A DNA stretch of 64,000 bases, taken from the NCBI RefSeq assembly GCF_029945685.1, contig NZ_JAQSDA010000022.1, positions 1 to 64,000 on the forward strand, given 5' to 3'. The stretch's first letter is position 1; each line of letters starts with the position of its first letter. This document shows positions 133-62,384 of this stretch, piece by piece. The position numbers and the translations under genes were made by a program. The notes under the pieces were generated by a model. It ran no database searches and was not told where the DNA came from. It saw only the letters and a program-made list of their open reading frames with translations. Source of the DNA: Polaromonas sp. GTDB lineage: Bacteria > Pseudomonadota > Gammaproteobacteria > Burkholderiales > Burkholderiaceae_C.

Positions 133-2055
133 GTGACCCCCGCCGCCCCCCTCTTCCCTTTGCGGCCGCCCCGCCGCCCCATCCGCGAACTTCCCGACGA
201 GCTGATCAGCCAGATTGCAGCCGGCGAGGTCGTGGAACGTCCGGCTTCCGTCGTGCGGGAGCTGGTCGACAACGCGCTGGACGCCGGCGCCAGGCAGGTC
301 ACGGTGCGCTTGCTGGCCGGCGGTGTGCGGCTGATTTCGGTTGAGGACGACGGCCTGGGCATCGCGCGCGAGGAACTGGCGATTGCGCTGCGTCGCCACG
401 CCACCAGCAAGATCGCCTCGCTGCAGGACCTCGAATCCGTGGGCACCATGGGTTTTCGCGGTGAGGCACTGGCTGCCATCAATTCGATTGCCGACATGAG
501 CCTGCTGTCGCGCAGCTCCGAAGCCTCGGCCAGCGGCGACGCGGCGCACGCCTGGCAGCTCGACGGCCGCTCCGGCGAGCTGACACCGGCCGCGCGCGCG
601 CGCGGCACCACGGTGGAGGTGCGTGAGCTGTTTTATGCCACGCCGGCGCGCCGCAAGTTCCTGAAAACCGACGCCACCGAGCTGGCGCACTGCATCGAAG
701 CCGTGCGCCGCCACGCGCTGGTGCGGCCCGACGTGGGTTTTGCGATCTGGCACGAGGGCAAACTCGTTGAACAGTGGCGCGCCTGCAGTGGCGAGAGCGC
801 ACACGACCAGCGCCTGGCCGATGTACTCGGCAGCGAACTGCTGGCGCATAGCGTGGCGGTGGACTACAGCGCCGGCGCACTGCGCGTGACCGGTCGCGCC
901 GGCATTCCGGATGCCGCGCGTTCGCGGGCCGACCAGCAGTTTGCCTACGTCAACGGCCGTTATGTGCGCGACAAGGTGATGACCCACGCCGCGCGCAGCG
1001 CCTACGAAGATGTGCTGCACGGCCACCGCCAGCCGGTTTATGCGCTCTACGTCACCATGGACCCGACGCGGGTGGACGTCAATGTGCACCCGACCAAGAT
1101 CGAGGTGCGTTTTCGTGACAGCCGCGAAGTGCACCAGGCGGTGCGGCACGCGGTCGAAAACGCCCTGGCGGCACCGCGTGCAGCCGCGGCCGCATTGGCA
1201 GCAGCCAGCGGCACATCAGCACCAAACTTCGAATCAAATCAGCCTCCGGCCCTTTCCCCCTGGGCGCAGCCAGCTATCAATTTCGGAGCGACTCAGGCTT
1301 ACCGCCAGGACCCGCGTGTCTCCGACTTCGAGGCGATGTGGCCTTCGCCGACTGCCGGCCTTTCCACCGTTCGCCCTGAGCCTGTCGAAGGGCCTTATGC
1401 GGCCACGGCTTCGACAGGCTCAGCACGAACGGGAAATACGGGCACGGACAACACCGACCTGCCGCCCGGCGACTGGCCGCTGGGCCGCGCCGTTGCCCAG
1501 CTGCAGGGCATTTACATCCTGGCCGAAAACATCCAGGGCCTGGTGATTGTGGACATGCACGCCGCCCACGAACGCATCGTCTACGAGCGGCTGAAAAGCC
1601 AGCTCGACAGCGCCAGCATCGCCAGCCAGCCCCTGCTGATTCCGGCCACCTTCGCCGCCACGCCACAGGAAGTCGCCGCTTCCGAGGCGCACACCGACAC
1701 GCTGAAGGCACTGGGCCTGGAGATCACGCCGTTCTCGCCGCGCACCCTGGCCGTGCGCGCGGTGCCGACCAGCCTGGCCCAGGGCGATGCGGTGGAACTG
1801 GCGCGCAGCGTGCTGGCCGAGCTGGCGCAACACGACGCCAGCACGGTGATCCAGCGCGCGCAAAACGAATTGTTATCGACCATGGCCTGCCACGGCGCGG
1901 TGCGTGCCAACCGCAAACTCACCATCGACGAGATGAACGGCCTGCTGCGCCAGATGGAAGCCACCGAACGCTCCGACCAGTGCAACCACGGGCGTCCGAC
2001 CTGGCGTCAAATCACAGTCCAGGAACTGGACAACCTGTTTTTGCGCGGACGCTGA
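133..2055 (+). CDS. mutL: DNA mismatch repair protein MutL with endonuclease motif
   Basis: MutL couples mismatch recognition by MutS to strand incision. The N-terminal GHKL ATPase domain is clear: ELVDNALDAGA at 43-53, DDGLGI at 72-77 and GFRGEAL at 107-113. The C-terminal dimerisation domain starts near residue 455 and carries DMHAAHERIVYE (474-485), a match to the DQHA(X)2E(X)4E nuclease motif, plus ACHGAVRAN near 584 and CNHGRP at 617-622, which match the other metal-site motifs of nicking MutLs. This fits bacteria without MutH. The linker between domains (about 345-455) contains two repeat elements in frame, at 1228-1290 and 1367-1432. The start is GTG at 133 with only a weak ribosome-binding site, so it is less certain than the rest. 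Confidence 0.95.
   Translation: MTPAAPLFPLRPPRRPIRELPDELISQIAAGEVVERPASVVRELVDNALDAGARQVTVRLLAGGVRLISVEDDGLGIAREELAIALRRHATSKIASLQDLESVGTMGFRGEALAAINSIADMSLLSRSSEASASGDAAHAWQLDGRSGELTPAARARGTTVEVRELFYATPARRKFLKTDATELAHCIEAVRRHALVRPDVGFAIWHEGKLVEQWRACSGESAHDQRLADVLGSELLAHSVAVDYSAGALRVTGRAGIPDAARSRADQQFAYVNGRYVRDKVMTHAARSAYEDVLHGHRQPVYALYVTMDPTRVDVNVHPTKIEVRFRDSREVHQAVRHAVENALAAPRAAAAALAAASGTSAPNFESNQPPALSPWAQPAINFGATQAYRQDPRVSDFEAMWPSPTAGLSTVRPEPVEGPYAATASTGSARTGNTGTDNTDLPPGDWPLGRAVAQLQGIYILAENIQGLVIVDMHAAHERIVYERLKSQLDSASIASQPLLIPATFAATPQEVAASEAHTDTLKALGLEITPFSPRTLAVRAVPTSLAQGDAVELARSVLAELAQHDASTVIQRAQNELLSTMACHGAVRANRKLTIDEMNGLLRQMEATERSDQCNHGRPTWRQITVQELDNLFLRGR
1228..1290 (+). repeat. Interspersed repeat (family A) in mutL linker
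   Basis: This copy reads TCAGCCTCCGGCCCTTT, then CAGCTATCAATTT, matching the pattern of the other family A copies in the window. It stays in frame and encodes about 21 residues of the poorly conserved MutL linker (residues about 366-386). Confidence 0.65.
1367..1432. repeat. REP-like inverted repeat inside mutL
   Basis: The arms at 1367-1390 and 1409-1432 are 24 bases each and match at 22 positions when one is reverse-complemented, with core CTTCGACAGGCTCAG. The loop is 18 bases. It is translated as VRPEPVEG followed by STGSARTG within the MutL linker (residues about 412-434). Sequences of this type are widespread REP elements in proteobacteria. Confidence 0.85.
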
Positions 2056-2066
2056 GCCGCCGGCAC

Positions 2067-2528
2067 TCAGCCGGCACGCAGCGCCAGCGCTCCTGCCAGG
2101 CAACAAGGCAGGGCCACCGCGCTGAGTTGCAGGCGCAAACCCAGCCAGGCCGCAGCACCGGCCGCCGGGTAAAGCCAGCAGTCCACCGCCAAACAGGCGG
2201 CAATCAGACCGGCCAGCAGGGCCAGCCCCGCATCGGGCGCCAGCAGGAGGCCGGCCCACCCCGCCAGGCTGGGCAGCACGCCCCAAACGAGGTGGCGCGA
2301 GCGCAGCGGCGAACCGCGCATGGCCAGCCCCCAGTGGATGCCACCCAGAAAACTGGCGATCAGCGCCGCGTAGGCCACCAGCGCCGTGCCCGCCAGCGGG
2401 CGCCAGCCCGGATCGCCCCACCAGAGCATGCCGGCGCCCGCCAGAAACGGCAGCAAACCGGCCAGACCCAGCGCGCGGGCCACGGTGTCGGGGGCTGCCA
2501 GGGTGGGCAGGGGCGTGGGAATTGTCAT
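2067..2528 (-). CDS. DUF3429 family membrane protein
   Basis: A 153-residue protein with about four hydrophobic segments. It has the family hallmarks LGLAGLLPF near the N-terminus and SFLGGIHWGLAM in the middle, which identify DUF3429 (YqjF-like proteins of unknown role in the inner membrane). I chose the ATG at 2528 because the family begins shortly before the LGxxGLxPF motif; an upstream extension to 2618 would be low-complexity. It converges on mutL with 11 bases between the stop codons, and a GCCGGC hairpin (2059-2075) sits on the junction. Function unknown. Confidence 0.8.
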   Translation of the reverse strand: MTIPTPLPTLAAPDTVARALGLAGLLPFLAGAGMLWWGDPGWRPLAGTALVAYAALIASFLGGIHWGLAMRGSPLRSRHLVWGVLPSLAGWAGLLLAPDAGLALLAGLIAACLAVDCWLYPAAGAAAWLGLRLQLSAVALPCCLAGALALRAG

Positions 2529-2620
2529 GGGCAGCGAGTGTACGGCGCCTGTGGCAGGCCCGCAACGCGAGGGACATCGCGGCAGGGCGTTGAACTTTTC
2601 AGGCGCCCGGCGACTCATTC

Positions 2621-4808: not shown

Positions 4809-5752
4809 CAACTTCACGCTGGATCGGCCTCGCCGGCCCCACCGCGTCGGGAAAAACGGCGGCTGCCTTCGCCATTGCCAGGCATCACCCGGTGGAAATC
4901 ATCAGCGTGGATTCCGCCCTGGTCTACCGCGGCATGGACATCGGCACGGCCAAGCCGACACCGGCCGAACTCGCCCTTGTTCCGCACCACCTGATCAACA
5001 TCCGCGACCCGCTGCAGGCTTACAGCGCCGCCGGGTTTATGGCCGACGCCACGCGCCTGATCGACGAGATCACGGCGCGCGGCAGGCTGCCGCTGCTGGT
5101 CGGCGGCACCATGCTTTATTTCAAGGCGCTGTTCGACGGCCTCGACGACATGCCCAAGGCTGACCCGGCGATTCGCGCCACCCTGCTGGCCGAGGCGGGC
5201 GCGAAAGGCTGGCCCGCGCTGCACGCCGAGCTGGCCACGGTGGATGCGGTGACCGCCGCACGGCTGGCGCCCAATGACTCGCAGCGCATCTCCCGCGCGC
5301 TGGAGGTGTTTCGCCTGACCGGGCTGCCGTTGTCGTTTTTCCAGAAGAAGATTGCTATCGAAAAAGTAGCTGGTGGCGCAGGCTCCATAAGGGCTGGAGC
5401 CCTGATTTCCCTTGAACCCCAAGACCGCGCCTGGCTGCACGAACGCATTGCCCAGCGCTTTGACGCCATGCTCGCGACCGGTTTTCTGGACGAGGTGAAG
5501 GCCCTGCGCGCGCGCGGCGACCTGCACCCCGAGCTGCCGTCCATGCGCTGCGTCGGTTACCGCCAGGCCTGGGAAGCGCTTGACGGCGTCTTCCCCCTGA
5601 GCGAACTGCGTGAACGCGGCATTGCCGCCACGCGCCAGCTCGCCAAACGCCAGATCACGTGGTTGCGCTCCATGCCGGACCGCCAGGTGGTGGCCTGCGA
5701 CCATCCCGGCGCCGTACAGCAGGTGCTGGACCTGGTGAAGCAGGCCCTATGA
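4805..5752 (+). CDS. miaA: tRNA dimethylallyltransferase
   Basis: MiaA transfers a dimethylallyl group to N6 of A37 in tRNAs that read UNN codons. Here it has 315 residues, near the usual 310-315. The P-loop GPTASGKT is at 11-18, [16 protein letters not shown] follows at about 38-53, and [11 protein letters not shown] at about 99 matches the conserved GGTGLY region. The start is ATG 4805 because it overlaps the upstream stop (ATGA) and places the P-loop at the family position. Residues about 182-203 ([11 protein letters not shown]...) are encoded by an antisense copy of the family A repeat. The stop overlaps the ABC ATPase start. Confidence 0.94.
5351..5412 (-). repeat. Interspersed repeat (family A) in miaA
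   Basis: Read on the minus strand it gives GGGCTCCAGCCCTTATG, then CAGCTACTTTTT and GATAGCAA, matching the intergenic copy at 19108. It lies in frame but antisense to the gene and keeps MiaA open. Confidence 0.75.
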
Positions 5753-6396
5753 GCCTCATCGTCCAGAACCTCGGCAAACACTACGGCGACCTTGCCGTGT
5801 TCAGCCACGTCTCGCTGCAGGTCGCGCCCGGCGAATTTGTCGCCATCGTCGGCGAGTCGGGTGTCGGCAAGTCGACGCTGCTCAACTGCATGGCCGGGCT
5901 GGACAGCTGGGACGCGGGTTCGGTCAGCCTGGACGGTGTGGACCTGGGCACGCTCAGCGACGACCAGCGCGCCCTGCTGCGCCGCGAAAAAGTCGGCTTC
6001 GTCTTCCAGGCTTTTCACGTGTTGCCGCACCTGGACGTGGCGCAAAACGTCGCCCTGCCGCTGTTGCTGCTCGGCCAGCACGACGATGCACGGGTGCAGG
6101 CCATGCTGGCCGCCGTCGGCCTGGCAGGCCTGGGCGCGCGCCTGCCGCAGCAGCTTTCGGGCGGGCAGTTGCAGCGCGTGGCGATCGCGCGCGCCCTGAT
6201 CCACCGTCCCAGCCTGCTGCTGGCCGACGAGCCGACCGGCAACCTCGACCCCACCACCGCCGCCAGGGTCATGGACGCGCTGGTGGCGCAAACCCGTGAG
6301 CACGGCGCCGCGCTGGTGCTGGTCACCCATTCGGAAACTGCGGCCGCGCGTGCCGACCGGGTGCTGCACCTGAGCAGCGAAGGCATCACGGGCTGA
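5749..6396 (+). CDS. LolD/MacB-type ABC transporter ATPase (AttE-like)
   Basis: A 215-residue stand-alone nucleotide-binding subunit. Walker [10 protein letters not shown] is at 35-43, the signature LSGGQLQR is near 136-143 and Walker [13 protein letters not shown] is near 155-166. The DEPTGNLD form and the length are typical of the LolD/FtsE/MacB group, which energises FtsX-type permeases rather than importers. The only such permease in the window is at 8187-10766, so they are likely partners, with the lipocalin at 13119-14213 as a third part (AttEFGH type). It starts inside the miaA stop (ATGA). Confidence 0.88.
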
Positions 6397-6461
6397 CGCC
6401 AGGCAGGCCTTCCCGAAGACAATGACTTGTCAAAGCCTCCATCAGCCCCAACTGAATCCTG

Positions 6462-7124
6462 ATGAACGCCTCATCCTTTGAAACCCTTGAATTGCTCCCC
6501 GCAACGGCGCCGCGCCAGTTGTTTGTGCTGCTGCACGACGCTGGCGGTTCGGCCATGGACATGATGGCGCTGGCCACACTGATCGGCGAGTCCTTCAGTG
6601 AAGCGGCCATCGTGATGCCGGAAGGCGTCGAAGCCATCCACCTGGGCAAAACCGAGCGGCAGTGGTTTCCGACCTTTGAACTGACCGATGCCAACCACCC
6701 GGAACGCGTGGCTCGCGCGGTGCCGCCCCTGGCGGCATTCATTCGCCAGCAGCAGGAGCGTTTTGGCATTTTGCAGTCCGACACGGCGCTTGCCGGTTTT
6801 TCGCAGGGCGCCACCATGGCGCTGGCGCTTTGCGACCGGCATGACGGCCTGGTCGGCCGCGTGCTGGCCTTTTCGGGGCCTTACGCGGCCTGGCCCGACA
6901 AGGCCCCCGCGCTCACCACCATCCACCTGCTGCACGGCCAGCTCGATGAGGTCGTGCCGGCGCGCTTGGCACAGCAGGGTTATGCCGAGCTGATGGCGCT
7001 GGGGGCTGATGCCACCTGCGACATCGCTTCCAGCATCGGCCACGAGCTGCACCCGGCATTGATGGCGCAGGCGGTGCACCGGCTGCAGACCTGTGTGCCG
7101 CTGCGTTTCTGGCGCTCCGCCTGA
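6462..7124 (+). CDS. YpfH-like carboxylesterase/phospholipase
   Basis: A 220-residue cytosolic alpha/beta hydrolase of the phospholipase/carboxylesterase family, similar in layout to E. coli YpfH. LLHDAGG (24-29) forms the oxyanion region. The nucleophile is S114 in GFSQG, D162 follows HGQL, and H194 is in GHELHP, giving a complete triad. RQWFP (66-70) is also characteristic. It follows the ABC ATPase by 65 bases on the same strand and converges on the dehydratase. YpfH-type enzymes act on short acyl esters; the natural substrate is unknown. Confidence 0.82.
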   Translation: MNASSFETLELLPATAPRQLFVLLHDAGGSAMDMMALATLIGESFSEAAIVMPEGVEAIHLGKTERQWFPTFELTDANHPERVARAVPPLAAFIRQQQERFGILQSDTALAGFSQGATMALALCDRHDGLVGRVLAFSGPYAAWPDKAPALTTIHLLHGQLDEVVPARLAQQGYAELMALGADATCDIASSIGHELHPALMAQAVHRLQTCVPLRFWRSA

Positions 7125-7130
7125 AGCTGT

Positions 7131-8093
7131 TCAGCGAGTAGCCAGCAGCTCGGCGTAACGCGCCAGGTCCACATTGCCGCCGCTGATGATCACGCCGACG
7201 CGAGCACCCTTGATCGCCGCCGCGTCCGTGCAGGCGCCGGCAAACGCCAGGCAGCCGGTCGGCTCCACCACCATCTTCATGCGCTCCGCAAAAAAGCGCA
7301 TCGCCTCGACCAGCTGCGCATCCGTGGCGGTGAGGATGTCGTCCACATCGCGGCGGATGATGCCGAAGGTGTACGCACCCAGGTGCTGGGTCTGCGCGCC
7401 GTCGGCAATGGTCTTGGGCACCGGAATATGCACAATGCGCCCGGCACGCAGCGACTGCTGGCCGTCGTTGCCGGCTTCGGGCTCGACGCCGTACACCTTG
7501 CACTGCGGCGCCAGCGCGCGGGCGGCCAGTGCCGAGCCGCTGGTCAGCCCGCCGCCGCCGGTGCACATGTAGAGGCGGTCCAACGGGCCGGTTTCCTCGA
7601 ACAGCTCCTTCGCGGCCGTGCCCTGGCCGGCGATGACGTCGGGGTGGTCGTAGGGCGGAATCAGCGTCATGCCTCGCTCGACCGCCAGTCTCAGGGTCAG
7701 CGCCTCGCGGTCTTCGGTGAAGCGGTCGTACAGCACCACCTCGGCGCCGTAGCCGCGCGTGGCGGCCAGCTTGGCGGCGGGCGCGTCCTGCGGCATCACG
7801 ATCAACGCCGGCATGCCCAGCAGCCGCGCCGACAGGGCCACCGCCTGCGCATGATTGCCCGATGAAAACGCGATGGCGCCGGCCTGGCGCTGCGTCGCAT
7901 CAAACTTCGACAGCGCATTGAAGGCCCCGCGGAACTTGAAAGCACCCATGCGCTGGAAGTTCTCGCACTTGAAGAAAAACTGCGCGTCCCAGCGCGCGTC
8001 GGCGGTGGCGGAGCGCAGCACCGGCGTGTGGTGCGCATGGCCTTGGATGCGCGCGGCGGCGGCAACAACATCGTCGTAGGTAGGAAGCTGCAT
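7131..8093 (-). CDS. PLP-dependent threonine/serine dehydratase family protein
   Basis: A 320-residue fold-type II PLP enzyme without a C-terminal ACT domain, so it is of the catabolic or serine racemase type rather than biosynthetic IlvA. The PLP lysine is K53 in GAFKFRGA, the substrate loop SSGNHAQ is at 78-84, the phosphate-binding loop GGGGL is at 179-183 and SGGN is at 304-307. Deamination of L-threonine or L-serine, or threo-3-hydroxyaspartate ammonia-lyase activity, are the likely options. The ATG at 8093 begins right before the conserved N-terminus. The frame stays open far upstream, but only antisense to the permease gene. Confidence 0.87.
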   Translation of the reverse strand: MQLPTYDDVVAAAARIQGHAHHTPVLRSATADARWDAQFFFKCENFQRMGAFKFRGAFNALSKFDATQRQAGAIAFSSGNHAQAVALSARLLGMPALIVMPQDAPAAKLAATRGYGAEVVLYDRFTEDREALTLRLAVERGMTLIPPYDHPDVIAGQGTAAKELFEETGPLDRLYMCTGGGGLTSGSALAARALAPQCKVYGVEPEAGNDGQQSLRAGRIVHIPVPKTIADGAQTQHLGAYTFGIIRRDVDDILTATDAQLVEAMRFFAERMKMVVEPTGCLAFAGACTDAAAIKGARVGVIISGGNVDLARYAELLATR

Positions 8094-8186
8094 GGCGAGT
8101 GGGCTTTCGTTGAATGACTGAGGAACAACGATAGCCCAGAACCTGACCGCCATCACCGCCGGCAATGTGAAAGGCACAATCAGCCC

Positions 8187-10766
8187 ATGCTCGCCCTTCT
8201 TTCCACCTTCTCCTGGCAGGAGCTGCTGCACCACAAGTGGCGCAACGCGGCGGCCGTGGTGGCCGTCATGCTGGGGGTGGCGCTGGCGTTTTCGGTGCAG
8301 CTGATCAATGCCTCGGCTCTCACAGAGTTTTCGCAGGCCGTGCGTTCGGTCAACGGCCAGCCCGACCTGGAGCTGCGCGCGGTGCGCGGCGGGTTTGACG
8401 AAGCGGTCTACGCGCGGGTCGCGAATCACCCGCAGGTGGCGCTGGCCAGCCCGGTGCTGGAGTTCAGCACCTACGCCGTCGCCCCCGGCGGCCAGCGGGT
8501 GGCCCTGCGCGTGGTCGGTGTCGATGCGCTGGTGGTGGCTTCGCTGGCCCCGGCGCTGATGCCGGTACCCTCGGCCGGCGCCGAACGCCTGGCCCTGCTC
8601 GCCCCCGGCGCGGTTTTTCTCAACGCGGCAGCGCGGCAAAACCTGCCCGGCGACCGGCTGCAGCTGCAAAGCGGCCTGCAGCTGCTGGACGCCCGGGTGG
8701 CCGGCAGCATCAGCGCCGGGGGTGCCGCGCTGGCGGTGATGGACATAGGCGCAGCGCAGGACCTGTTCGGCCGGCTCGGCCAGCTCTCGCGCATCGACAT
8801 CCGCCTGCAGGCCGGTGCCGACCGCGCCGCCTTCATCAGCGCGCTGCAACTGCCGCCCGGCATCACCGCCACCGAACCAGGCGACGACGCGCAGCGCGTC
8901 AGCAACCTGTCGCGCGCCTACCGTGTCAACCTCACCGTGCTGGCGCTGGTGGCACTGTTCACCGGCGCCTTCCTGGTCTTTTCGGTGCTGTCGCTGAGCG
9001 TGGCCAAACGCGCGCAGCAGTTCGCCCTGCTCGGGGTGCTGGGCCTGACCGGCCGCGAGCGCCTGCGCCTGGTGCTCTGGGAGTCGGCGCTGCTGGGCAT
9101 GGTCGGCAGCGCCGCCGGCATCGCGCTGGGCACGGCGCTGGCCGCGCTGGCGCTGCGGGTGCTGGGCGGCGACCTGGGCGGCGGCTACTTTTCCGGCGTG
9201 GCCCCGGCCCTGCAATGGAATGCGGGCGCGGCCGCGGTCTACGGCCTGCTCGGTGTGGCCGCGGCGCTGGTGGGCGGCTGGTGGCCGGCGCGCGCCGCAC
9301 AAAAACTGCCGCCGGCGCAGACCCTCAAGGGCCTGGGCGCACCGCCGGCCGGCGGCACGCCGTACCGGCTCAGCCTGCTGCTGGTGGCCGCGAGCGGCTT
9401 GCTGGCCTTGACGCCACCGGTGGCCGGCATCGCGCTGGGCGCCTACCTGTCGGTCGGGCTGCTGCTGGTGGGCGGCATCAGTGCGCTGCCCTGGCTGATC
9501 GCCCTGCTGTACGACCGCATCGCGCCGCATGTGTCGCGCCGCCTGTTGCCGCTGCTGGCGGTGGAGCGCGCGCGCCGTGTGCGCGGCAGCGCGGCGGTGG
9601 CCGTCAGCGGCGTGGTCGCTTCGCTGAGCCTCGCGGTGGCACTGACGGTGATGGTGGCGAGTTTTCGCGACTCGGTCACCCACTGGCTGGACGTGGTGCT
9701 GCCGGCCGACCTGTACGTGCGCACCGCCGGCAGCACCGCTGCCAGCGACACGGTGTTTTTCTCGCCCGCGTTTGTGCAGGCGCTGGCGCAGCTGCCCGGC
9801 GTGGCGCGCCTGAGCACCTTGCGCGTGAGCTCCCTGCTGCTGGACGCCAACCAGCCCGCGGTGGCGCTGATAGCGCGCGACCTGCAGGACCCGGCCGGCA
9901 GCCTGCCGCTGGTGGGCAGCGCGCTGCCGGTGCCGGCCGGTCACGTGGCGATTTATGTGAGTGAACCCATGGTCGACCTGTACGGTGCCCGTCCCGGCGC
10001 TGTGTTTTCCCAGCTTTCGGCGTCTTTTGGGGCTCTAGCCCTTGATACACCGGCGCCAGCAGCTATGAATTCAGGAGCACCCCAGGCGAGCCCCAAGTTC
10101 TATGTCGCCGGCGTCTGGCGAGACTACGCGCGCCAGTTCGGCGCCATCGCCATGGACAGGCGCGACTTTGAAGCCCTCACCGGCGACCGGCGCGTGAACG
10201 ACCTCGCCTTGTGGCGCGCCCCCGGCGCGGGCGACGCGCAACTGCAGCAGGCGGTGCGCGCGCTGGCGCAGGCGCAGGCGCAGACGGGCTCGGGCGAGCT
10301 GATCGAGTTTGCGTCCAGCGGCCAGATCCGCGCCACCTCGCTGCGCATTTTCGACCGCAGCTTTGCCGTTACCTACTGGCTGCAGGCGGTGGCGATTGCG
10401 ATCGGCCTGTTCGGTGTGGCAGCCAGCTTCAGCGCGCAGGTGCTGGCGAGGCGCAAGGAGTTTGGCCTGCTGGCCCACCTGGGCCTGACGCGCCGGCAGA
10501 TCCTCACGCTGGTCGCCGGCGAAGGTGCCGCCTGGACGCTGGCCGGCGCGCTGGCCGGGCTGGGCCTGGGGTTGGCCGTATCGCTGGTGCTGGTGCATGT
10601 GGTCAACCCGCAAAGCTTCCACTGGACCATGGACCTGGCGCTTCCCTGGGCGCGGCTCCTGGGCCTGTGCGCGGCCGTCATCCTGGCCGGCACCGTCACC
10701 GCCTGGCTGGCCGGGCGCGCAGCGGCGGGCAAGGACGCGGTGCTGGCCGTCAAGGAAGACTGGTAG
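8187..10766 (+). CDS. FtsX-type ABC transporter permease (AttF/AttG-like)
   Basis: An 859-residue inner-membrane protein with a duplicated FtsX/MacB layout: an N-terminal helix (about 18-40), a large periplasmic domain, a block of helices near 245-365, more helices near 390-445, a second periplasmic domain and three C-terminal helices (about 735-850). This 'double FtsX' form (COG0577) works with LolD-like ATPases to move lipids, lipoproteins or siderophore-like molecules at the outer leaflet. The probable ATPase is 1.8 kb upstream at 5749. A family A repeat is embedded in the second periplasmic domain (residues about 613-631). Confidence 0.85.
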   Translation: MLALLSTFSWQELLHHKWRNAAAVVAVMLGVALAFSVQLINASALTEFSQAVRSVNGQPDLELRAVRGGFDEAVYARVANHPQVALASPVLEFSTYAVAPGGQRVALRVVGVDALVVASLAPALMPVPSAGAERLALLAPGAVFLNAAARQNLPGDRLQLQSGLQLLDARVAGSISAGGAALAVMDIGAAQDLFGRLGQLSRIDIRLQAGADRAAFISALQLPPGITATEPGDDAQRVSNLSRAYRVNLTVLALVALFTGAFLVFSVLSLSVAKRAQQFALLGVLGLTGRERLRLVLWESALLGMVGSAAGIALGTALAALALRVLGGDLGGGYFSGVAPALQWNAGAAAVYGLLGVAAALVGGWWPARAAQKLPPAQTLKGLGAPPAGGTPYRLSLLLVAASGLLALTPPVAGIALGAYLSVGLLLVGGISALPWLIALLYDRIAPHVSRRLLPLLAVERARRVRGSAAVAVSGVVASLSLAVALTVMVASFRDSVTHWLDVVLPADLYVRTAGSTAASDTVFFSPAFVQALAQLPGVARLSTLRVSSLLLDANQPAVALIARDLQDPAGSLPLVGSALPVPAGHVAIYVSEPMVDLYGARPGAVFSQLSASFGALALDTPAPAAMNSGAPQASPKFYVAGVWRDYARQFGAIAMDRRDFEALTGDRRVNDLALWRAPGAGDAQLQQAVRALAQAQAQTGSGELIEFASSGQIRATSLRIFDRSFAVTYWLQAVAIAIGLFGVAASFSAQVLARRKEFGLLAHLGLTRRQILTLVAGEGAAWTLAGALAGLGLGLAVSLVLVHVVNPQSFHWTMDLALPWARLLGLCAAVILAGTVTAWLAGRAAAGKDAVLAVKEDW
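10024..10080 (+). repeat. Interspersed repeat (family A) in ABC permease
   Basis: It reads GGGGCTCTAGCCCTTGAT, then CGCCAGCAGCTATGAATTC, in the sense orientation. It encodes ALALDTPAPAAMNSG within the second periplasmic domain. Confidence 0.75.
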
Positions 10767-10919: not shown

Positions 10920-11126
10920 ATGGCGCCCGCTCAATACCGCATTGAAAGCCGGAACACGCTAAGGGGCAGCCTGCTGCCACCCAACGCCCTCCGGCAACTC
11001 TACACAGACCGCTCGCTGGCCGTGGCCGTGGCGGTCAAAAGCCTGGCCGACCCGACCTGCCAGGACATCCGCGTGGTGCACGTGCCCAGCGGCGAAATTG
11101 TTTTCCAGACGGCGCCGACGCACTAA
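10920..11126 (+). CDS. Small hypothetical protein
   Basis: A 68-residue soluble protein rich in Ala, Val and Arg, with the well-formed end IRVVHVPSGEIVFQTAP. The ATG at 10920 was chosen because it begins a compact protein; a longer frame from 10845 has no better start. No signal peptide, helix or metal motif is visible and I do not recognise the family. The stop codon TAA is formed by the first bases of a MITE-like element (11123-11292), so the original C-terminus may have been different. Confidence 0.6.
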   Translation: MAPAQYRIESRNTLRGSLLPPNALRQLYTDRSLAVAVAVKSLADPTCQDIRVVHVPSGEIVFQTAPTH

Positions 11127-11292
11127 GGAAGCGCTGGAGGAGTCCTTGCGGAGGCGCGGCAGCCGGATCGGGACGGGATGCAAGGCGGATTTCGCAGCCA
11201 ATAGCCGACTATTGGCAAGAAATTCAACGCCGCAGACCGCCCGAGCCCGGCTGATCGCGCGCCGCAGGGGACTTGTTCAGCGCTTCCCTAAG
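11123..11292. mobile_element. MITE-like element with terminal inverted repeats
   Basis: The left end CTAAGGAAGCGCTG (11123-11136) is nearly the reverse complement of the right end CAGCGCTTCCCTAAG (11278-11292), with ten perfect terminal pairs. The roughly 170 bp element has no coding capacity of its own and contains an internal AATAGCCGACTATT palindrome. This is a typical non-autonomous miniature element layout. I recall similar ends in other Comamonadaceae but cannot check. Confidence 0.7.
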
Positions 11293-14213: not shown

Positions 14214-14302
14214 CGTTGAGTGGGATTGGCTGGTTAACGGCACTCTGTACTTCTCGACAGCTACCGAATTGAATAGCAATCGCCAAAGAAGGGGCTGAAT
14301 CG

Positions 14303-19037: not shown

Positions 19038-19107
19038 GCGCGGGCAGCCCCATCGCATGCCGAATGATGGGCGGTGCGGGGCCTGCCAGCACCTTGCGTT
19101 TATCAAC

Positions 19108-19162
19108 GATTTTGGCCTCCAGCCCTTATGTGGCGGGCGCCAGCAGCTATCAAATCAGCAGC
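19108..19162 (+). repeat. Interspersed repeat (family A), intergenic
   Basis: This is the best preserved copy: TTTTGGCCTCCAGCCCTTAT, then GTGGCGGGCGCCAG, then CAGCTATCAAATCAGCAGC. It fills most of the 143-base gap between the DUF305 gene and eutC, and I used it as the reference for the family. Confidence 0.8.
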
Positions 19163-19180
19163 AACTGTGGACTGACTGCC

Positions 19181-21348: not shown

Positions 21349-21502
21349 CGCTGTGGGCCCAGGTTGCGGCGGCCGCACCGGAACGGGGGTGCGTTTGTCG
21401 CCAGCCTCTATCGTAGGGGAAGCGCGATGGATGCACAGCCGCGCGCGGTCTTGCGGGATCCGCAGCACCCCCCAAAGACACGCCGGAGCAAAGTTCATGC
21501 AT

Positions 21503-21560
21503 GTTTTAGCCCCCCAGCCCTTGCTGTATATGCGCAAGCAGCTATCAAATACATAGCTTT
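21503..21560 (+). repeat. Interspersed repeat (family A) upstream of eutB
   Basis: TTTTAGCCCCCCAGCCCTT is followed by GCGCAAGCAGCTATCAAATA and CATAGC. It occupies the 239-base gap between kup and eutB together with otherwise featureless sequence. Confidence 0.8.
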
Positions 21561-33715: not shown

Positions 33716-33781
33716 TCAAGCCTTTCAGGCCTGCAGCCCTTTCCCGTCAAGCGCGGACAGCTATCGAATAAATAGCAAAGC
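33716..33781 (+). repeat. Interspersed repeat (family A), intergenic
   Basis: TTCAGGCCTGCAGCCCTTT, then GCGCGGACAGCTATCGAATA and AATAGCAAAGC. It lies in the 230-base gap between the CDF gene and the SDR gene, directly downstream of the SDR stop. The remaining sequence in the gap shows no feature. Confidence 0.75.
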
Positions 33782-34541: not shown

Positions 34542-34713
34542 GTGTTTTTCCTTCAAGTGTTGCGCGGCCCGGTGCCGCTTCCCTGCAGCCCGACAACCCG
34601 GACGCTGCGCCCGGTGAAACTGCGTCGTTCATTGTGAGCCGATCAGGGTCGGAAGGCTTGATTTAAAACAAGCTGGAGAAATGGGCGGCGGCGCCGGCGG
34701 CGCCACATAAGCC

Positions 34714-36276: not shown

Positions 36277-36278
36277 GC

Positions 36279-37634: not shown

Positions 37635-37687
37635 GTTGTTGCTCTTGAAAAGAATCGGCGATGCGGGATGTCGGTGCGGGACCTGGT

Positions 37688-39226
37688 TCAGCGGATGGCA
37701 ACGGCCGTGGCGGGCGCGGCATAACCGCCACCCAGTGCGCGCGCCAGGCCCACCTGGGTGTCGAGCGCGCGCGCGGCCAGATCCACCGCCAGGCGGCGCT
37801 GGTTCAGCACGCTGCTCTCCGCCGTCAGCACATGCAGGTAGTTGCCCAGACCGGCCTTGTAACGCTGCACGGCAATCTCATAGGCGCCCTCGGCGGCCTC
37901 CTGCGCGGCGCGCTGCTCGGTCTGCTGGCGCGTGATGGACTGGGATGAGGCCACCTGGTCGGCGACGTCACGCACGGCATCGATCACGGCGGCGTTGTAA
38001 CTTTCGACGGCACCATCGAGGTCGGCGGTCTTGCCGCGCAGGTTGGCGCGCAGGCGGCCGGCGTCAAAAATCGGCAGGCGCAGCGCCGGGCCGACGCCCC
38101 ACTGCTGGCTGCCCGCCTCGAACAGGCGCCCCAGGCCGATGCTGGAAAAGCCGGCGAAGGCGACCAGGTTGACGTTGGGGTAGAACTGGGTTTTGGCGTT
38201 GGCCACGTCCCTGGAGGCGGCCTCGACACGCCAGCGCGCCGCGGCGATGTCAGCCCGGCGGCCCAGCAGGTCGGCCGGCAGTTGTGCCGGCATTGCTACT
38301 TTTTTTATAGCTGGCAGCGCAGACGGAACAAGGGCCAGAGCCCCATCGGGCTGCCCAATCAGCGCGCCCAGCGCGTTGCGGCCCAGCGCCAGCTGCTCCT
38401 GCAGGGTTTCGATCTGCAGGCGCGCCTCGGGCAGACCGCCTTCGCTCTGGCGCAGCTCGAGCTGGGTGTCCAGCCCGGCGTTGACGCGGTCCTGCACCAG
38501 TGCCAGGGTTTCCTGGCGCTGTGCCAGCGTGCGGCGTGCCACCGTCAATTGCGCCTGGGTACGCGCGAGCTGGAAATAGCTGCGCGCCACATGGCTGGCA
38601 AGCAACACGCGGGCAGCGTCGGCGTCGGCCTGGGCGGCGCGGGCACTGCCCAGGGCGGCTTCGAGGGCGGAGCTGTATTTGCCGAAAAAGTCGATCTCCC
38701 AGCTGGCGCTGAGCTGGGCCATGCCGCTTTCGCGGATGGAGCCAGCCAGAGGCGGCGGCACGGCGCCGTTGGCGCTGTACTTCTGGCGCGTCAGGTCGAG
38801 CTGGCCATTGAGCTGCGGCAAGGTGGCCGCATCGGCCACCTCGGTCACGGCCTGCGCGCGTGCCAGCCGCGCCTGAGCCAGCTTCAGGCTGGGGTTGTTC
38901 TGCAGCGCCTGCGCGACCAGGGCATTGAGTTGCTCGTCGCCGAAGTCGCGCCACCATTCGGTCGCCACGCCGGCCGGTGCGGCAATGGCGGACGTGGCAG
39001 GCGCAACAGGTGCGGCGGCCAGCCCCAGCGTGGAGGCATCACGCAGGCTGGCCTGCGGGTGGATGCCGGACATGTCGGCGCAACCGCTGAGGCCGGTCGC
39101 CATCAGCCCGGCGGCAATCAGGCCGGCCGCGCTGACCACGGCCATGCGAAACGAGGCTTGCCATACCGGCAGCGGGTTCGGGGCAGACGCAGCGCGCTCC
39201 TCGAGCGTATTGAGTTTATCTGTCAT
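37688..39226 (-). CDS. NodT-family outer-membrane efflux lipoprotein
   Basis: A 512-residue TolC-type channel of the NodT/OprM lipoprotein group. The leader ends in GLSGC (lipidated Cys near residue 49 after an extended N-terminus). The two repeats of the OEP domain are present, with ELPTEWWRDFGD-like VATEWWRDFGDEQLNALVAQAL at the start and RRADIAAARWRVEAASRDVANAKTQFYPN in the middle. A family A repeat lies in frame and encodes ALALVPSALPAIKKVAM. The gene overlaps marR by 11 bases; ATG 39226 was chosen, with an in-frame start six codons upstream. Confidence 0.92.
   Translation of the reverse strand: MTDKLNTLEERAASAPNPLPVWQASFRMAVVSAAGLIAAGLMATGLSGCADMSGIHPQASLRDASTLGLAAAPVAPATSAIAAPAGVATEWWRDFGDEQLNALVAQALQNNPSLKLAQARLARAQAVTEVADAATLPQLNGQLDLTRQKYSANGAVPPPLAGSIRESGMAQLSASWEIDFFGKYSSALEAALGSARAAQADADAARVLLASHVARSYFQLARTQAQLTVARRTLAQRQETLALVQDRVNAGLDTQLELRQSEGGLPEARLQIETLQEQLALGRNALGALIGQPDGALALVPSALPAIKKVAMPAQLPADLLGRRADIAAARWRVEAASRDVANAKTQFYPNVNLVAFAGFSSIGLGRLFEAGSQQWGVGPALRLPIFDAGRLRANLRGKTADLDGAVESYNAAVIDAVRDVADQVASSQSITRQQTEQRAAQEAAEGAYEIAVQRYKAGLGNYLHVLTAESSVLNQRRLAVDLAARALDTQVGLARALGGGYAAPATAVAIR
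38293..38343 (-). repeat. Interspersed repeat (family A) in outer-membrane factor gene
   Basis: On the minus strand it reads GGGCTCTGGCCCTTGTT, then GCCAGCTATAAAAAAAGTAGC. It is in frame and in sense with the gene, close to the RRADI block that starts the second OEP repeat. Confidence 0.75.
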
Positions 39227-39734
39227 TTTTTTCAGCCGATGCATGCAGGGTTTGGGCGGTGTCGAGAATGCGGCGCAGGTAACCCTTGAGGGTTTCCCAC
39301 TCTTCCTTGGTGAACCCGGCCAGACACTCGTTCTGGATGTTGCTGAGCACGACGGGAATGGCCTTGGCGGCCTCGCCGCCCTCTTCCGTCAGCTCCAGGT
39401 TGACGACCCGGCGGTCTTCGCTGGACCGCACGCGGCGGCACAGGCCCTTGGCTTCAAGACGGTCGAGCAGGCGTGTCATGGCGCCGGCGTCAAGGTCGCA
39501 GGTGCGGGCGAGTTCGGCCACAGAGCTGGCCTGTCCCTGCTGCAACTTCAGGAGCGGGACCCATTGGGCATTGGTCAGGCCATTGGGCTCCATGCGGCGT
39601 TCAACTTCCTGCGCCAGGTGGTTGACGATGCGGCGCATCAGGTAGCCCACACTTTCCTGCGCGAGGTAACCCTGCGCACGGTAAAACGATGCTGGCGCAG
39701 CCGCTGTTGGTGCAGGAATGTTGTCGGATTTCAT
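39216..39734 (-). CDS. MarR family transcriptional regulator
   Basis: A 172-residue winged-helix MarR protein. Recognition elements are SSVAELARTCDLDAGAMTRLLDRLEAKGLCRR and the wing SSEDRRVVNLELTEEG, flanked by dimerisation helices. It heads the operon marR - outer-membrane factor - emrA - emrB. MarR proteins of this type repress such pumps and release DNA on binding phenolic or lipophilic ligands. A near-perfect palindrome overlaps its promoter, arguing for autorepression. ATG 39734 was chosen; the next start upstream (39761) would lie inside the promoter. Confidence 0.93.
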   Translation of the reverse strand: MKSDNIPAPTAAAPASFYRAQGYLAQESVGYLMRRIVNHLAQEVERRMEPNGLTNAQWVPLLKLQQGQASSVAELARTCDLDAGAMTRLLDRLEAKGLCRRVRSSEDRRVVNLELTEEGGEAAKAIPVVLSNIQNECLAGFTKEEWETLKGYLRRILDTAQTLHASAEKNDR

Positions 39735-39742
39735 AGCTTCAA

Positions 39743-39771
39743 ATATTACATGCCTAGACAAATAATGTCAA
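39743..39771 (-). promoter_or_regulatory. Promoter of the marR-emr operon
   Basis: On the minus strand a consensus TTGACA (39771-39766) is separated by exactly 17 bases from TAATAT (39748-39743), nine bases before the marR ATG. It is the best sigma70 promoter I found in the window. Confidence 0.85.
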
Positions 39772-39774
39772 GGC
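39752..39774. promoter_or_regulatory. Predicted MarR operator
   Basis: GCCTAGACA-aataa-TGTCAAGGC is an inverted repeat with eight of nine pairs matching. It covers the -35 box and most of the spacer of the operon promoter, so a bound dimer would block polymerase. It lies about 50 bases from the divergent ABC exporter start and might affect that gene as well. Confidence 0.75.
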
Positions 39775-39823
39775 TTTGTTTGTGCAGGCAGCTTATTGAG
39801 GCTTTATTGACTAAACTACCCGC

Positions 39824-41608
39824 ATGGCTACTTCCCCTCCTTCTGACGCGCCCAAGGGCTCGCCGCGCTCCCTCTCCGGCCTGCTGCCCTTTTTGCGTCC
39901 TTACCGCGGCCGCATTGGCCTGGCCATCTTTTTTTTGGTGATGGCGGCGGTCGCCACGCTGGTGTTTCCGCTGGCCTTGCGCGGCCTGATCGACGGCGGC
40001 CTGGGCGCGGGCGACAAAGGCGCGCAGCTGATGGCACTGCGTACCCATTTCTTCGAGCTGTTTGCAGTGGCGGCAGCGCTGGGCCTGTTTTCGGCCGGCC
40101 GCTTCTACATGGTCAGCTGGCTGGGAGAACGCGTCACGGCCGACCTGCGCAACGCGGTTTATGCCCACGTGGTGCGGCAAAGCCCGGAGTTTTTTGAAAC
40201 CACGCAGACCGGCGAAGTGCTCTCGCGCCTGACCGGCGACACCACGCTGGTGCAGACGGTGGTGGGCTCGTCGCTCAGCATGGGCCTGCGCAACGCCGTG
40301 ATGGGCATAGGTGCGCTGGGCATGCTGGTGGTGACCAACCCCTACCTGATGGTGCAGGTGCTGGGCGGGCTGGTGCTGATCGTCGTGCCCTCGGCCTGGT
40401 TCGGCCGGCGCGTGCGCAAGCTTTCGCGCGCCAGCCAGGACCGGGTGGCCGACTCCAGCGCGATTGCGGCCGAGGTGCTCAATGCCATCCCGGTGGTGCA
40501 AAGCTACACCGCCGAAGCACGCGAGGCCGCACGGTTTGACCAGTCCACCACCGACGCGTTCAACACCGCCGTGCGCCGCACCGCCGCACGTTCGGTGCTG
40601 GTGGCCTTCATCATCATCGCCACCTCGGCGGCGCTGCTGTGGGGCCTGTACAGCGGCACGCAGGCGGTGATGCGCGGCGACATCACGGCCGGCCACCTGG
40701 GCCAGACGGTGGTGTACGTGATCATCCTGGCCAGCGCCACCGCGGTGCTGGGCGAGGTGTATGGCGACCTGCTGCGCGCCGCCGGCGCCACCGAGCGGCT
40801 GATGGAGCTGCTGGAAACCCGCTCCCCCGTGACATCACCATCAAATCCGGTGCCAGCCCCCGTGGTGCGGGCGGGAAGTGCTATCAAATTCGAAGCAGTG
40901 AATTTTCACTATCCGTCGCGCCCCTTGCAGGCGGCGCTGAGCGACTTCTCGCTGAACGTGGCGCCCGGCGAAACCGTGGCCATCGTGGGACCCAGCGGCG
41001 CGGGCAAAAGCACGGTGTTCCAGCTGCTGCTGCGTTTTTACGACCCGGCCTCGGGCCGCATCGAGCTCGACGGCGTGGCCACCCGTGACCTGGCGCTGCA
41101 TGACCTGCGCCAGCGCATCGGCATCGTTCCGCAGGACGCGGTGATTTTCTCGACCAGCGCGCTGGAAAACATCCGCTACGGCAAACCCGGCGCGAGTGAC
41201 AACGAAGTCCGGGCGGCGGCGCAGGCGGCCTTTGCGCACGAGTTCATCATGGCGCTGCCGCAAGCGTATGACACCTTTCTGGGCGAACGCGGCGTGCGCC
41301 TGTCGGGCGGGCAACGTCAGCGCATTGCGATTGCACGCGCCATGCTCAAGAACCCGCCGCTGCTGCTGCTGGACGAAGCCACCAGTGCCCTCGATGCAGA
41401 AAGCGAACGCATGGTGCAGGCCGCGCTGGAGTCGGCCATGCAGGGCCGCACCACGCTGGTGGTGGCGCACCGCCTGGCCACCGTGCAGAAGGCTGACCGC
41501 ATCCTGGTGCTGGACCACGGCCGCCTGGTGGAGCAAGGCACGCACGCTGAGCTGGTGAGCCGCGGCGGGATCTATGCGCGACTGGCCGCGCTCCAGTTCA
41601 ACGCCTGA
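39824..41608 (+). CDS. MsbA-like ABC exporter (fused TMD-NBD)
   Basis: A 594-residue half-transporter. Six membrane helices occupy about 28-320 and the nucleotide-binding domain about 355-590: Walker A GPSGAGKST near 389-397, signature LSGGQRQR near 493-500, Walker B LLLLDEATSALD near 513-524 and the H-loop VVAHRL. It resembles lipid/drug exporters of the MsbA/LmrA type in proteobacteria. The linker between the two domains (about 338-360) is encoded by a family A repeat. It diverges from marR, leaving 89 bases for both promoters. Confidence 0.92.
   Translation: MATSPPSDAPKGSPRSLSGLLPFLRPYRGRIGLAIFFLVMAAVATLVFPLALRGLIDGGLGAGDKGAQLMALRTHFFELFAVAAALGLFSAGRFYMVSWLGERVTADLRNAVYAHVVRQSPEFFETTQTGEVLSRLTGDTTLVQTVVGSSLSMGLRNAVMGIGALGMLVVTNPYLMVQVLGGLVLIVVPSAWFGRRVRKLSRASQDRVADSSAIAAEVLNAIPVVQSYTAEAREAARFDQSTTDAFNTAVRRTAARSVLVAFIIIATSAALLWGLYSGTQAVMRGDITAGHLGQTVVYVIILASATAVLGEVYGDLLRAAGATERLMELLETRSPVTSPSNPVPAPVVRAGSAIKFEAVNFHYPSRPLQAALSDFSLNVAPGETVAIVGPSGAGKSTVFQLLLRFYDPASGRIELDGVATRDLALHDLRQRIGIVPQDAVIFSTSALENIRYGKPGASDNEVRAAAQAAFAHEFIMALPQAYDTFLGERGVRLSGGQRQRIAIARAMLKNPPLLLLDEATSALDAESERMVQAALESAMQGRTTLVVAHRLATVQKADRILVLDHGRLVEQGTHAELVSRGGIYARLAALQFNA
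40837..40898 (+). repeat. Interspersed repeat (family A) in ABC exporter linker
   Basis: CATCAAATCCGGTGCCAGCC is followed by GTGGTGCGGGCGGGAAGTG and CTATCAAATTCGAAGC. It encodes NPVPAPVVRAGSAIKFEA and runs into the first strand of the ATPase domain, so AIKFEA now serves both roles. Confidence 0.65.
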
Positions 41609-58297: not shown

Positions 58298-58318
58298 GGG
58301 ATATCTCTTGCTCGCTGC

Positions 58319-60082: not shown

Positions 60083-60102
60083 CCGTTCCCTGAGGAGAAC
60101 GG
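60083..60102. other. Hairpin between secG and tRNA-Leu
   Basis: CCGTTC (60083-60088) pairs with GAACGG (60097-60102). It lies just downstream of secG but has no T-tract, so it is more likely an mRNA-end or processing structure than an intrinsic terminator. Confidence 0.35.
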
Positions 60103-60115
60103 CACCTTTGTCCTG

Positions 60116-60526: not shown

Positions 60527-60559
60527 GTTTACTCCTAATTAAATAGCATGCGCCGACCG

Positions 60560-61318
60560 TCAAACGGCGGCTGCAGCAATAATCGTCAAAAAATCGGGGG
60601 CCTTGAGCGACGCGCCGCCGATCAAGCCGCCGTCGATGTCAGGCTGGCTCAGCAGCGTTGCGGCATTGGCCGCATTCATGCTTCCGCCGTACAGGATTTT
60701 CACGCGCGCGGACTGGTCCGTCGCCGCCTTGAGCTGAGCCCTGAGCACTGCATGCACGGCCTGCGCCTGCTCGGGCGTCGCGGTCCTGCCGGTGCCTATC
60801 GCCCAGACGGGTTCATAGGCCACGACGATCTCGCTGATGCAATGGCCGTTGGCATGAATCACCGCTGCCAGCTGGCGTTTGACGACGCTCTCGGTCTGCC
60901 CTGCTTCGCGTTCAGCCAGCGTCTCGCCGACACAGACAATCGGCGTGATGCCCACGGCCAGCGCCTGCTGTGCCTTCTCGGCCACCAGCGCATCGGTCTC
61001 AAAGTGGTATTGGCGGCGCTCCGAATGGCCAACGATGGCGTAACGGCAGCCGAAGTCCTTCAGCATGGACGCGCTGACTTCACCGGTGTAGGCCCCGGAG
61101 GCCTTGGCCGAGACGTCCTGCGCCCCCAGATCAATGGCAGCCAATGCCGGCAAGGCCTGGGCCAGCGCCTGGAACTGCGCCAGAAACGGCGCCGGGACAC
61201 ACACCGCCACCGCACACGCCGGCTGCGCCGGCAAACCGGCCGCCAGCGCCTGCAGCAAGGCTTCGTTGGCAGCCAGGCTGCCGTTCATCTTCCAGTTTCC
61301 TGCGATGAGTTTTTTCAT
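60560..61318 (-). CDS. tpiA: Triosephosphate isomerase
   Basis: A 252-residue TIM-barrel enzyme that interconverts dihydroxyacetone phosphate and glyceraldehyde-3-phosphate. N8 and K10 are in AGNWKMNG, the catalytic histidine in VGHSERR (about 95), the catalytic glutamate in [11 protein letters not shown] (about 167), and the phosphate loop [11 protein letters not shown] is near 213. ATG 61318 overlaps the oxidoreductase stop (ATGA). Confidence 0.97.
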
Positions 61319-62316
61319 GTTGCGGGCGCCTGCCAGGTCAGGACGATTTTGCCGATGTGCTGGTTGGACTCCATCAGCGCATGGGCCTGGGCGGCATCGG
61401 CCGCGGCAAAGGTGCTGTGGATCACGGGCTTGATTGCACCACTGGCAATCAGCGGCCAGACCTTGTCCCGCAGGGCCGCGGCAATCGCGGCCTTGAACTC
61501 GATCGAACGCGGCCGCAGGGTCGAACCGGTGATGGTCAGGCGCTTGCGCAGCACGAGACCGGCATTGAACTCGGCCTTGAGGCCGCCCTGCACGGCAATG
61601 ATCACCAGACGGCCGTCTTCGGCGAGGCACTCGACCTCACGCGCCACGTAGCTGCCGGCCACCATGTCCAGAATGACGTTGACGCCCTTCCCGTTCGTGA
61701 GCTTCTTCACTTCTTCCGCGAAGTCACTGGTCTTGTAGTTGATCGCGTGGTCGGCACCGAGGGCCAGACAGGCGGCGCACTTGTCGTCGCTGCCGGCCGT
61801 GACCAGCACCGTGGCGCCCAGCGCCTTGGCCATCTGGATAGCCGTCACGCCGATGCCGCTGGAGCCGCCCTGGATCAGCAGGGTCTCGCCCTTCTGCAGA
61901 CGCGCCCGGTCGAAGACATTGCTCCAGACCGTGAAAAAGGTTTCGGGCAAGGACGCCGCCTCGACATCGCTGAAGCCGTGCGGCACGGGCAGGCACTGAC
62001 CCACCGGTGCAACACACAACTCGGCATAACCGCCGCCAGCGACGAGTGCGCAGACCCGATCACCGACCTTCAGGCCGGCCTGCGCCATGGCCGCGGCGTC
62101 GCCGCCCACGACCACGCCGGCGACTTCCAACCCCGGAATATCCGACGCCCCGGGCGGCACCGGGTAGTTGCCGGTGCGCTGCAGGACATCGGGGCGGTTC
62201 ACGCCCGACGCAGCAACACGGATCAGCAATTCGCCGCTACCCGCAACCGGTTCGGGCCGTTCGCCCAGGCGCAGAACCTCAGGCGCCCCAAAAGTGGTGA
62301 TTTCGACTGCTTTCAT
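61315..62316 (-). CDS. PIG3-family NAD(P)H quinone oxidoreductase
   Basis: A 333-residue medium-chain reductase lacking the zinc ligands of alcohol dehydrogenases. The start [23 protein letters not shown] and [21 protein letters not shown] are characteristic of the TP53I3/PIG3 branch; the Rossmann loop is [20 protein letters not shown] (about 148-167). It should reduce quinones by single-electron transfer from NADPH. It lies between pnp and tpiA, overlaps tpiA, and is separated from pnp by a family A repeat. Confidence 0.92.
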
Positions 62317-62331
62317 GGATTTCTCAGATCA

Positions 62332-62384
62332 TTTGTGGCTGCAGCCCACGCCGGACGTGCGCAAGCAGCTACAAAATCAATAGC
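62332..62384 (+). repeat. Interspersed repeat (family A) after pnp
   Basis: TTTGTGGCTGCAGCCCACG, then GTGCGCAAGCAGCTACAAAA and TCAATAGC. It fills the 71-base gap between pnp and the quinone oxidoreductase and ends within four bases of the pnp stop codon. Confidence 0.7.

Follow-up and report, generated by a model that had tools for sequence, protein, structure and literature searches.

The window analysed here is a stretch of 64,000 nucleotides from Polaromonas sp. (NCBI RefSeq assembly GCF_029945685.1, contig NZ_JAQSDA010000022.1, positions 1 to 64,000 of the forward strand). It carries ten copies of one element of approximately 60 bp. As the original prediction had it, five lie within predicted genes, those of MutL, MiaA, an FtsX-type permease, a NodT-family outer membrane channel and an MsbA-related ABC transporter, and five are intergenic. 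The genome is 4.74 Mb long, and the named neighbours of the window MiaA belong to Polaromonas.

A covariance model, R1, was built from 33 copies of this genome, 27 of which were picked via an exact core pattern. It recovered all ten window copies within a few bases of the places first noted, with scores of 27 to 68 bits and a weakest E-value of 1.8e-5. Eight of the ten are part of the training set; the two outside it, at 14299 (36.4 bits) and 40840 (27.0 bits), still match. Pattern counts exceeded those of shuffled sequence (25 versus a mean of 11.5, and 12 versus 1.8 for a second pattern), and one core pattern has 36 exact matches genome-wide, the reversed pattern none. The copies form one real repeat family. 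The five genic copies are in open frames and are tolerated in linkers and loops.

Architecture, abundance and taxonomic spread of the motif

The conserved frame of the motif consists of an A/T-rich stretch, GGCCTCCAGCCCTT, nine variable bases, GCGC, four loose bases, AGCTAT, a further A/T-rich stretch and TAGC. Fixed blocks are thus set around variable spacer columns, with a GC content of approximately 50%. The consensus folds with only -0.54 kcal/mol, three pairs show no change on both sides, and the copies have no match in Rfam at gathering thresholds. Some copies in other genomes are able to form CTAGCGCTTAT/ATAAGCGCTAG. The peptides written by the motif are ESNxPxALxxxAQAAIxxIA and IAIExIAGGAxxxRAGxxFD.

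R1 found at least 150 copies in the whole genome, all below an E-value of 1e-9. In 864 kb, made up of two 400-kb contig stretches and the window, there are 144 copies at E≤0.01, on both strands, which extrapolates to approximately 790 genome-wide. Outside this genome, R1 matched 19 of 24 other genomes of the genus, six with at least 133 copies and some with only 1 to 5; it matched none of 16 genomes sampled from other families in the order. A wider model, R2, was run on 150 sampled genomes of the family; since an exact core had served to select its training loci from other genera, core conservation is inflated in it. R2 matched 65 genomes, namely 43 that we call motif-rich (at least 22 copies, where no more than 33 were scored per genome) and 22 with 1 to 16 copies; in the other 85 no copy was found. 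A pattern scan of named genomes gave at least 119 stretches. The 80 records listed are mainly from Acidovorax, Simplicispira, Giesbergeria, Comamonas, Ottowia, Rhodoferax, Curvibacter, Diaphorobacter and Polaromonas, together with metagenome-assembled genomes named only to higher rank. Two loci of Acidovorax temperans DSM 7270 (L107, L112) carry the motif; we take this to be the strain of the published study on species-limited transformation. The viral collection gave one exact-core match. What had been described from ten copies as a small repeat family is, once genome and relatives are searched by covariance model, far more numerous and dispersed across many genomes of the family, Comamonadaceae.

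Genes were predicted with a home-made codon-usage caller, and placement was counted for the 131 of 144 copies scoring 26 bits or more (13 dropped). Inside genes there are 44 copies, 18 lie across a gene edge and 69 are intergenic, compared with 81% of random 60-mers falling inside genes. Half of the genic copies (22) use one sense frame, 12 one antisense frame and 10 other frames. Of the 87 copies that are intergenic or straddle a gene edge, 65 have a 3' end as their closest gene boundary (46% for random positions). Convergent gaps hold 28 of these 87 (12% at random) and diverging gaps 5 (19% at random). Relative to an upstream gene within 150 bp, 39 copies are on the same strand and 42 on the opposite one, hence no preference. 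One gene (L271:3905-5281) holds two copies and lies directly upstream of an error-prone DnaE2 gene (5294-8491), itself with a third copy; its location hints at an imuB-type gene, for which Pfam gave no confirmation. In contig C20, the first 80 kb have a GC content of 0.57 to 0.62, versus 0.62 to 0.66 further on, and one copy versus approximately 12 predicted by the sample mean. This island (C20:1-80000, L279-L282) encodes metal RND/efflux pumps, copper ATPases, a phosphoketolase, and CBASS-like CD-NTase and E2/ThiF defence genes.

A full motif copy (65.3 bits) was also seen in a DUF1010 gene located between dfrA12 and aadA2 (L414:599-889, NC_004464.2; also L416), which is presumably the orfF cassette of class 1 integrons. 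The 306-bp stretch recurs with 99% identity or more in 1747 of 72,556 plasmid records, and plasmid pYKBP039 has five motif copies with a period of approximately 319 bp. This suggests a Comamonadaceae origin for the DUF1010 cassette.

Copies of the element in the window. Scores are for model R1; strands of genes follow their coordinates.
Position	Strand	Context	R1 (bits)	Family match or remark
1233..1292	+	mutL (133-2055+), linker between N- and C-terminal domains	57.9	MutL NF000949, 832 bits
5351..5410	-	miaA (4811-5752+), antisense, loop in C-terminal half	62.5	TIGR00174
10022..10081	+	FtsX-type ABC permease gene (8187-10766+)	59.7	PF02687
14299..14357	+	intergenic	36.4	3' part weak
19106..19165	+	intergenic, between converging genes	68.3	same place in relative G066
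21501..21560	+	intergenic	59.9	
33720..33779	+	intergenic, 12 bp from 3' end of predicted gene 33792-34541-	58.3	
38292..38351	-	NodT-family outer membrane channel gene (37688-39244-)	53.7	TIGR01845, 408.6 bits
40840..40899	+	MsbA-related ABC transporter gene (39824-41608+), between membrane and ATPase domains	27.0	TIGR02204; weak copy
62328..62387	+	intergenic, abutting 3' end of predicted gene 62388-63998-	57.6	

Other repeats are present in the window. A 167-bp palindrome at 11124-11290 (-114 kcal/mol) belongs to a separate repeat family; it is the only copy in the 864 kb, and relatives have many dispersed copies at approximately 79-96% identity. The MutL linker that holds an element copy also encodes, at 1363-1392, the peptide STVRPEPVEG, apparently a second dispersed repeat type. 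At the contig start (1-76) lies a repeat of approximately 60-76 bp, with many copies in relatives (approximately 89-100% identity) and one more in the 864 kb.

Retention of the copies at their sites

Seven coding copies of this genome were mapped in 5 or 10 Polaromonas relatives, and the sites were always filled. The MutL, MiaA and permease copies are at the same place in 10 of 10 aligned relatives. Likewise, five of five relatives share the position of the MsbA-related copy and of three copies that lie in two additional genes. The NodT-family copy was mapped in one relative, G064. The surrounding stretch (34640-39809, genes of the major facilitator superfamily and outer membrane channel) is present in G064 and was not found there in G004, G042, G066 and G071. 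Mapped flanks of the coding copies are 45 to 84 bases apart, more where other sequence adjoins the element. A clean empty site was sought around the copies of the mapped stretches and none was found, most intergenic sites having failed to align. One intergenic site (G066 L302:9481, G004 L306:1873, G071 L301:7900) looks empty in G064 by flank distance and is filled on alignment; a few others have short flank distances beside inserted or unalignable DNA. No target duplications were seen, in a survey that made no systematic search for them. In the permease gene, at 10082-10096, relatives L241, L246 and L247 carry 93, 114 and 138 extra bases directly after the element, all divisible by three, and in two of them these bases include GACAGGCTCAGGAC-type repeats.

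Set against solved structures, the MiaA loop has four residues fewer than that of 3crm and seven more than that of 2zm5, which we take to be the P. aeruginosa and E. coli MiaA structures, respectively. The NodT-family copy, compared with 1yc9, shows one residue of gap and no net insertion, and the MsbA-related copy, which encodes part of a conserved ATPase strand, differs from a solved structure by one or two residues. Net length was then measured as protein span minus profile span: 25 host proteins were scanned, and 18 had a family match spanning the copy. As read from the tables, 11 of the 18 fall between -20 and +8, and seven between +14 and +38 (MoeA, a YjeF-type protein, LD-carboxypeptidase, DnaE2, an EamA transporter, hydroxyisobutyryl-CoA hydrolase and RlmD); for three of these seven the Pfam domain gives +7 to +12. 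Among ten control proteins, taken with their best family model, five are within 3 residues, the others at -9, -7, +9, +38 and +53. The excess in seven hosts is thus not clearly above that of the controls, two of which exceed +14. A clear +20, as a simple insertion would give, is missing from most hosts; some may have it. A peptide added relative to orthologues was not seen at the MiaA, NodT-family, MsbA-related and MutL copies. Among the loci examined, element-free orthologues of the hosts provided few clean cases; L138 and L148 differ by 11 residues.

MiaA was searched in the same 150 family genomes, and 69 loci were analysed in detail, 29 chosen as best and 40 by status (20 motif-rich, 20 motif-free). 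Of 37 motif-rich genomes, 30 have a MiaA stretch with a motif score above 0; no such score occurs in the 26 motif-free genomes (best -35) or the 6 intermediate ones, and the Spearman coefficient is 0.83. Among these 30 copies, 26 have the strand and register of the Polaromonas copy, two occupy the same loop in another register and two are on the other strand. The copy in its own register recurs in 23 genera besides Polaromonas. On a quick single-gene MiaA tree that excludes the loop and compares 64 rows, rich or free, motif status must change at least 11 times, and starred branches call for at least 4 changes. Motif-free G208 and G092 are inside a starred clade of motif-rich genomes, and motif-free G206 stands beside G088 of the same genus; all three align gaplessly with motif-bearing kin over the MiaA site. 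This alignment shows replacement by substitution, in either direction, with loss as the presumed direction at the motif-free sites. An insertion older than the family may still underlie the MiaA copy.

These observations bear on the reading of the copies as mobile DNA inserted in frame. Recent or mobile insertion is not supported, given coding sites that are always filled where mapped, gapless motif-free MiaA sites, and an element at the same MiaA place in other genera, the very outcome the original prediction had named as speaking against it. As to in-frame insertion as such, 11 of 18 hosts lack an excess of 20 residues, and insertion is possible for up to seven.

Divergence was measured among relatives with the Polaromonas genome of the window left out, since its copies, being chosen for their match to the model, could mimic constraint. 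Over the seven coding copies, core columns diverge less than spacer columns, 0.091 versus 0.165 among five close relatives and 0.181 versus 0.314 among all (column permutation, p=0.0002). At third codon positions in the close relatives, divergence is 0.130 for the core, 0.141 for the genes and 0.248 for the spacer. The intergenic copy 33720 retains its core in G064, G066, G071 and G004, while the upstream-side DNA is unalignable in the last three and the spacer differs; being a single site, it cannot carry the constraint argument alone.

No clear history of copying is visible among the copies. For 121 ungapped copies of this genome, compared over 27 non-core columns, mean identity equals that of column-shuffled copies, and the maximum of 0.741 is within the range of six shuffles (0.70 to 0.815). 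No pair of these copies reaches 85% over 60 bases, and the best flank identity is 0.6. The near-identical copies and empty sites typical of a miniature inverted-repeat transposable element (MITE) are thus lacking among these copies and at the mapped sites, respectively. Finally, one base of the motif differs between lineages. At this position (GCCCTT versus GCGCTT), the Polaromonas genome has C in 115 of 119 copies and G in 4, and Acidovorax has G in 39 of 41 copies and C in 2 (26 loci, found with a pattern allowing both C and G). Several other genera are mixed.

A possible uptake-like signal and its alternatives

The near all-or-none status of genomes, sites kept over genera, slower blocks, the absence of a clear copying history and the dialect together argue for recognition in trans, and sequence-selective DNA uptake is the known process with these marks. 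We therefore favour, tentatively, the reading that the motif is a genome-wide DNA signal of the DNA uptake sequence (DUS) kind, maintained through biased transformation. Motif-bearing DNA would be favoured by a DNA receptor at the cell surface or on a pilus. Fragments from kin that carry the motif would be taken up and recombine at their own loci, and motif alleles would thereby replace damaged ones, genic and intergenic alike. Copies would accumulate or survive only in places where they are tolerated by proteins or gene ends. They would stay at the same sites over genera, shift jointly in dialect, and erode in place once recognition is lost.

The excerpts of PMC4212676 that are available report that Acidovorax temperans was transformed only by DNA of its own species, and that uptake in Verminephrobacter eiseniae is selective, salmon sperm DNA interfering only to a limited extent. 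They name no signal behind this self-selective transformation, and the titles and abstracts listed in literature searches, subscription journals being outside their coverage, name no uptake sequence for Comamonadaceae or Burkholderiales. With somewhat greater reserve, we propose that the motif could represent a further, independent class of uptake signal in Comamonadaceae. Such a signal would be two-block, A/T-flanked, approximately 60 bp long and present in several hundred copies per genome, spread and kept by biased transformation; it would write recurring peptides into conserved proteins and account for the self-selective transformation of Acidovorax and Verminephrobacter.

Drawing in part on the abstract of PMC2346458, the motif can be compared with the DUS of Neisseriaceae and the uptake signal sequences (USS) of Pasteurellaceae. 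Like these, it occurs in hundreds of dispersed copies on both strands, with preferred frames or orientations within genes and a bias to gene ends (3' ends here). It has lineage dialects. One acquired island holds few copies, and some plasmids do carry the motif. Retention of sites over species, another shared feature, was found at one site, MiaA, and the dialect in one base. Unlike DUS and USS, the motif is sparser and is approximately 60 bp long with 33 conserved columns, and uptake would be assigned to it by analogy. Known uptake sequences are quoted at 9-11 bp in the excerpts of PMC4212676. A short core of approximately 9-12 bp was not found here; if size is defining, the motif is a variant of DUS/USS and not a plain member.

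Several observations weigh against an uptake signal. The motif is long, with 33 of 60 columns reaching 70% conservation in an alignment for which an exact core was part of the selection, and sparse, at approximately one copy per 6 kb; two thirds of the copies are outside genes. How evenly the copies as a whole are spaced varies with contig and cut-off (p 0.006 to 0.47). The core is not more conserved than the host genes, which overall diverge by 0.068 (close relatives) and 0.145 (all), and one of the seven copies, the MsbA-related one, has no core effect (0.091 versus 0.085). The pairwise variance among copies is above that of shuffles, the best pair reaching 0.833 over 60 columns versus shuffled maxima of 0.77 to 0.80, so that a weak substructure is possible. 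MiaA gives no match above 0 in seven of the 37 motif-rich genomes, and the link between status and MiaA site is represented by three supported independent pairs, all or nearly all as expected, a number too small for a test (p 0.25). The 14-38 residues by which seven of 18 hosts exceed their family are explicable by insertion. The C20 island was picked out post hoc, some plasmids, of Comamonadaceae and others, bear motif copies, and the species-limited transformation of Acidovorax could reflect recombination instead of uptake.

The proposal carried by the original prediction, here in the form of an ancient mobile element of the MITE or repetitive extragenic palindromic (REP) type, would have hundreds of copies inserted in an ancestor, some in frame and now decaying, served by a trans-acting transposase that may have been lost. 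An extended conserved unit with A/T-rich ends, the intergenic bias, the long hosts such as MoeA and the YjeF-type protein (up to seven of 18), and the slight excess of pairwise likeness are all in line with it. We nevertheless consider it rather unlikely, given a core kept relative to its spacer, retention across genera, a gapless MiaA site in motif-free relatives, and spacers that are not shared beyond the shuffled range, with neither clean empty sites nor near-identical copies; the excess of length is found in two of ten controls too. REP elements with their REP-associated tyrosine transposases (RAYT, of the Y1 type) form hundreds of short dispersed copies, mainly extragenic. In favour of such an element, Y1 genes are present in 40 of 43 motif-rich genomes versus 113 of 150 overall, yet the sole Y1 gene of the Polaromonas genome (L031) has no copy in its 3.3-kb locus, three of the 43 motif-rich genomes have no Y1 match, and the motif, unlike REP, has no stable palindrome. 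As a strict requirement, a RAYT-driven REP was rejected.

The motif also shares with Rickettsia palindromic elements its dispersal in frames of unrelated proteins and between genes. Those elements are 105-146 bp long with long stem-loops, according to PMC2229807; the motif is shorter, lacks a stable consensus hairpin, and is often not an insertion at testable sites. The betaproteobacterial repeat element (BRE) is likewise dispersed, partly coding and found in Polaromonas. As given in PMC3110155, it is approximately 90 bp long, has 69% GC, forms tandem clusters, occurs in Bordetella as well, and has 29 copies in Polaromonas JS666, partly within coding sequence. Identity with BRE, compared by description and not by sequence letters, was set aside on GC content, size and host range, the motif having approximately half GC and no match in the sampled genomes of other families.

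Improbable in our view is a binding site for a chromosomal protein (nucleoid, segregation, repair or transcription end) selected directly at many loci. Variable spacers between core blocks, flanking A/T tracts, both orientations and the 3'-end bias would fit it, as would the near all-or-none presence per genome and, for one cut-off in a single contig stretch, a fairly regular spacing. It would nevertheless demand strong selection at several hundred redundant sites, including tRNA-modification and transport genes over genera, and the copies show no strand preference at genes; scarcity in the acquired island fits slow accumulation or uptake equally. A structured RNA or terminator element would explain copies at gene ends and the CTAGCGCTTAT/ATAAGCGCTAG that some copies elsewhere can form. 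The weak consensus fold, the lack of an orientation preference, coding copies in mid-gene and the absence of an Rfam match make it very improbable, and a structured RNA or riboswitch was rejected on the fold and the Rfam result.

Whichever binding or uptake reading holds, the two peptides are not to be taken for protein motifs, and the DNA motif can be used as a mark of Comamonadaceae ancestry in mobile genes. If it is another kind of binding site, it marks a novel protein with hundreds of targets, lacking in some lineages. If it is an uptake signal, a long motif would shape protein linkers over genera without transposition, a large bacterial family would trade DNA by password, and the published self-selective transformation would gain a concrete sequence.

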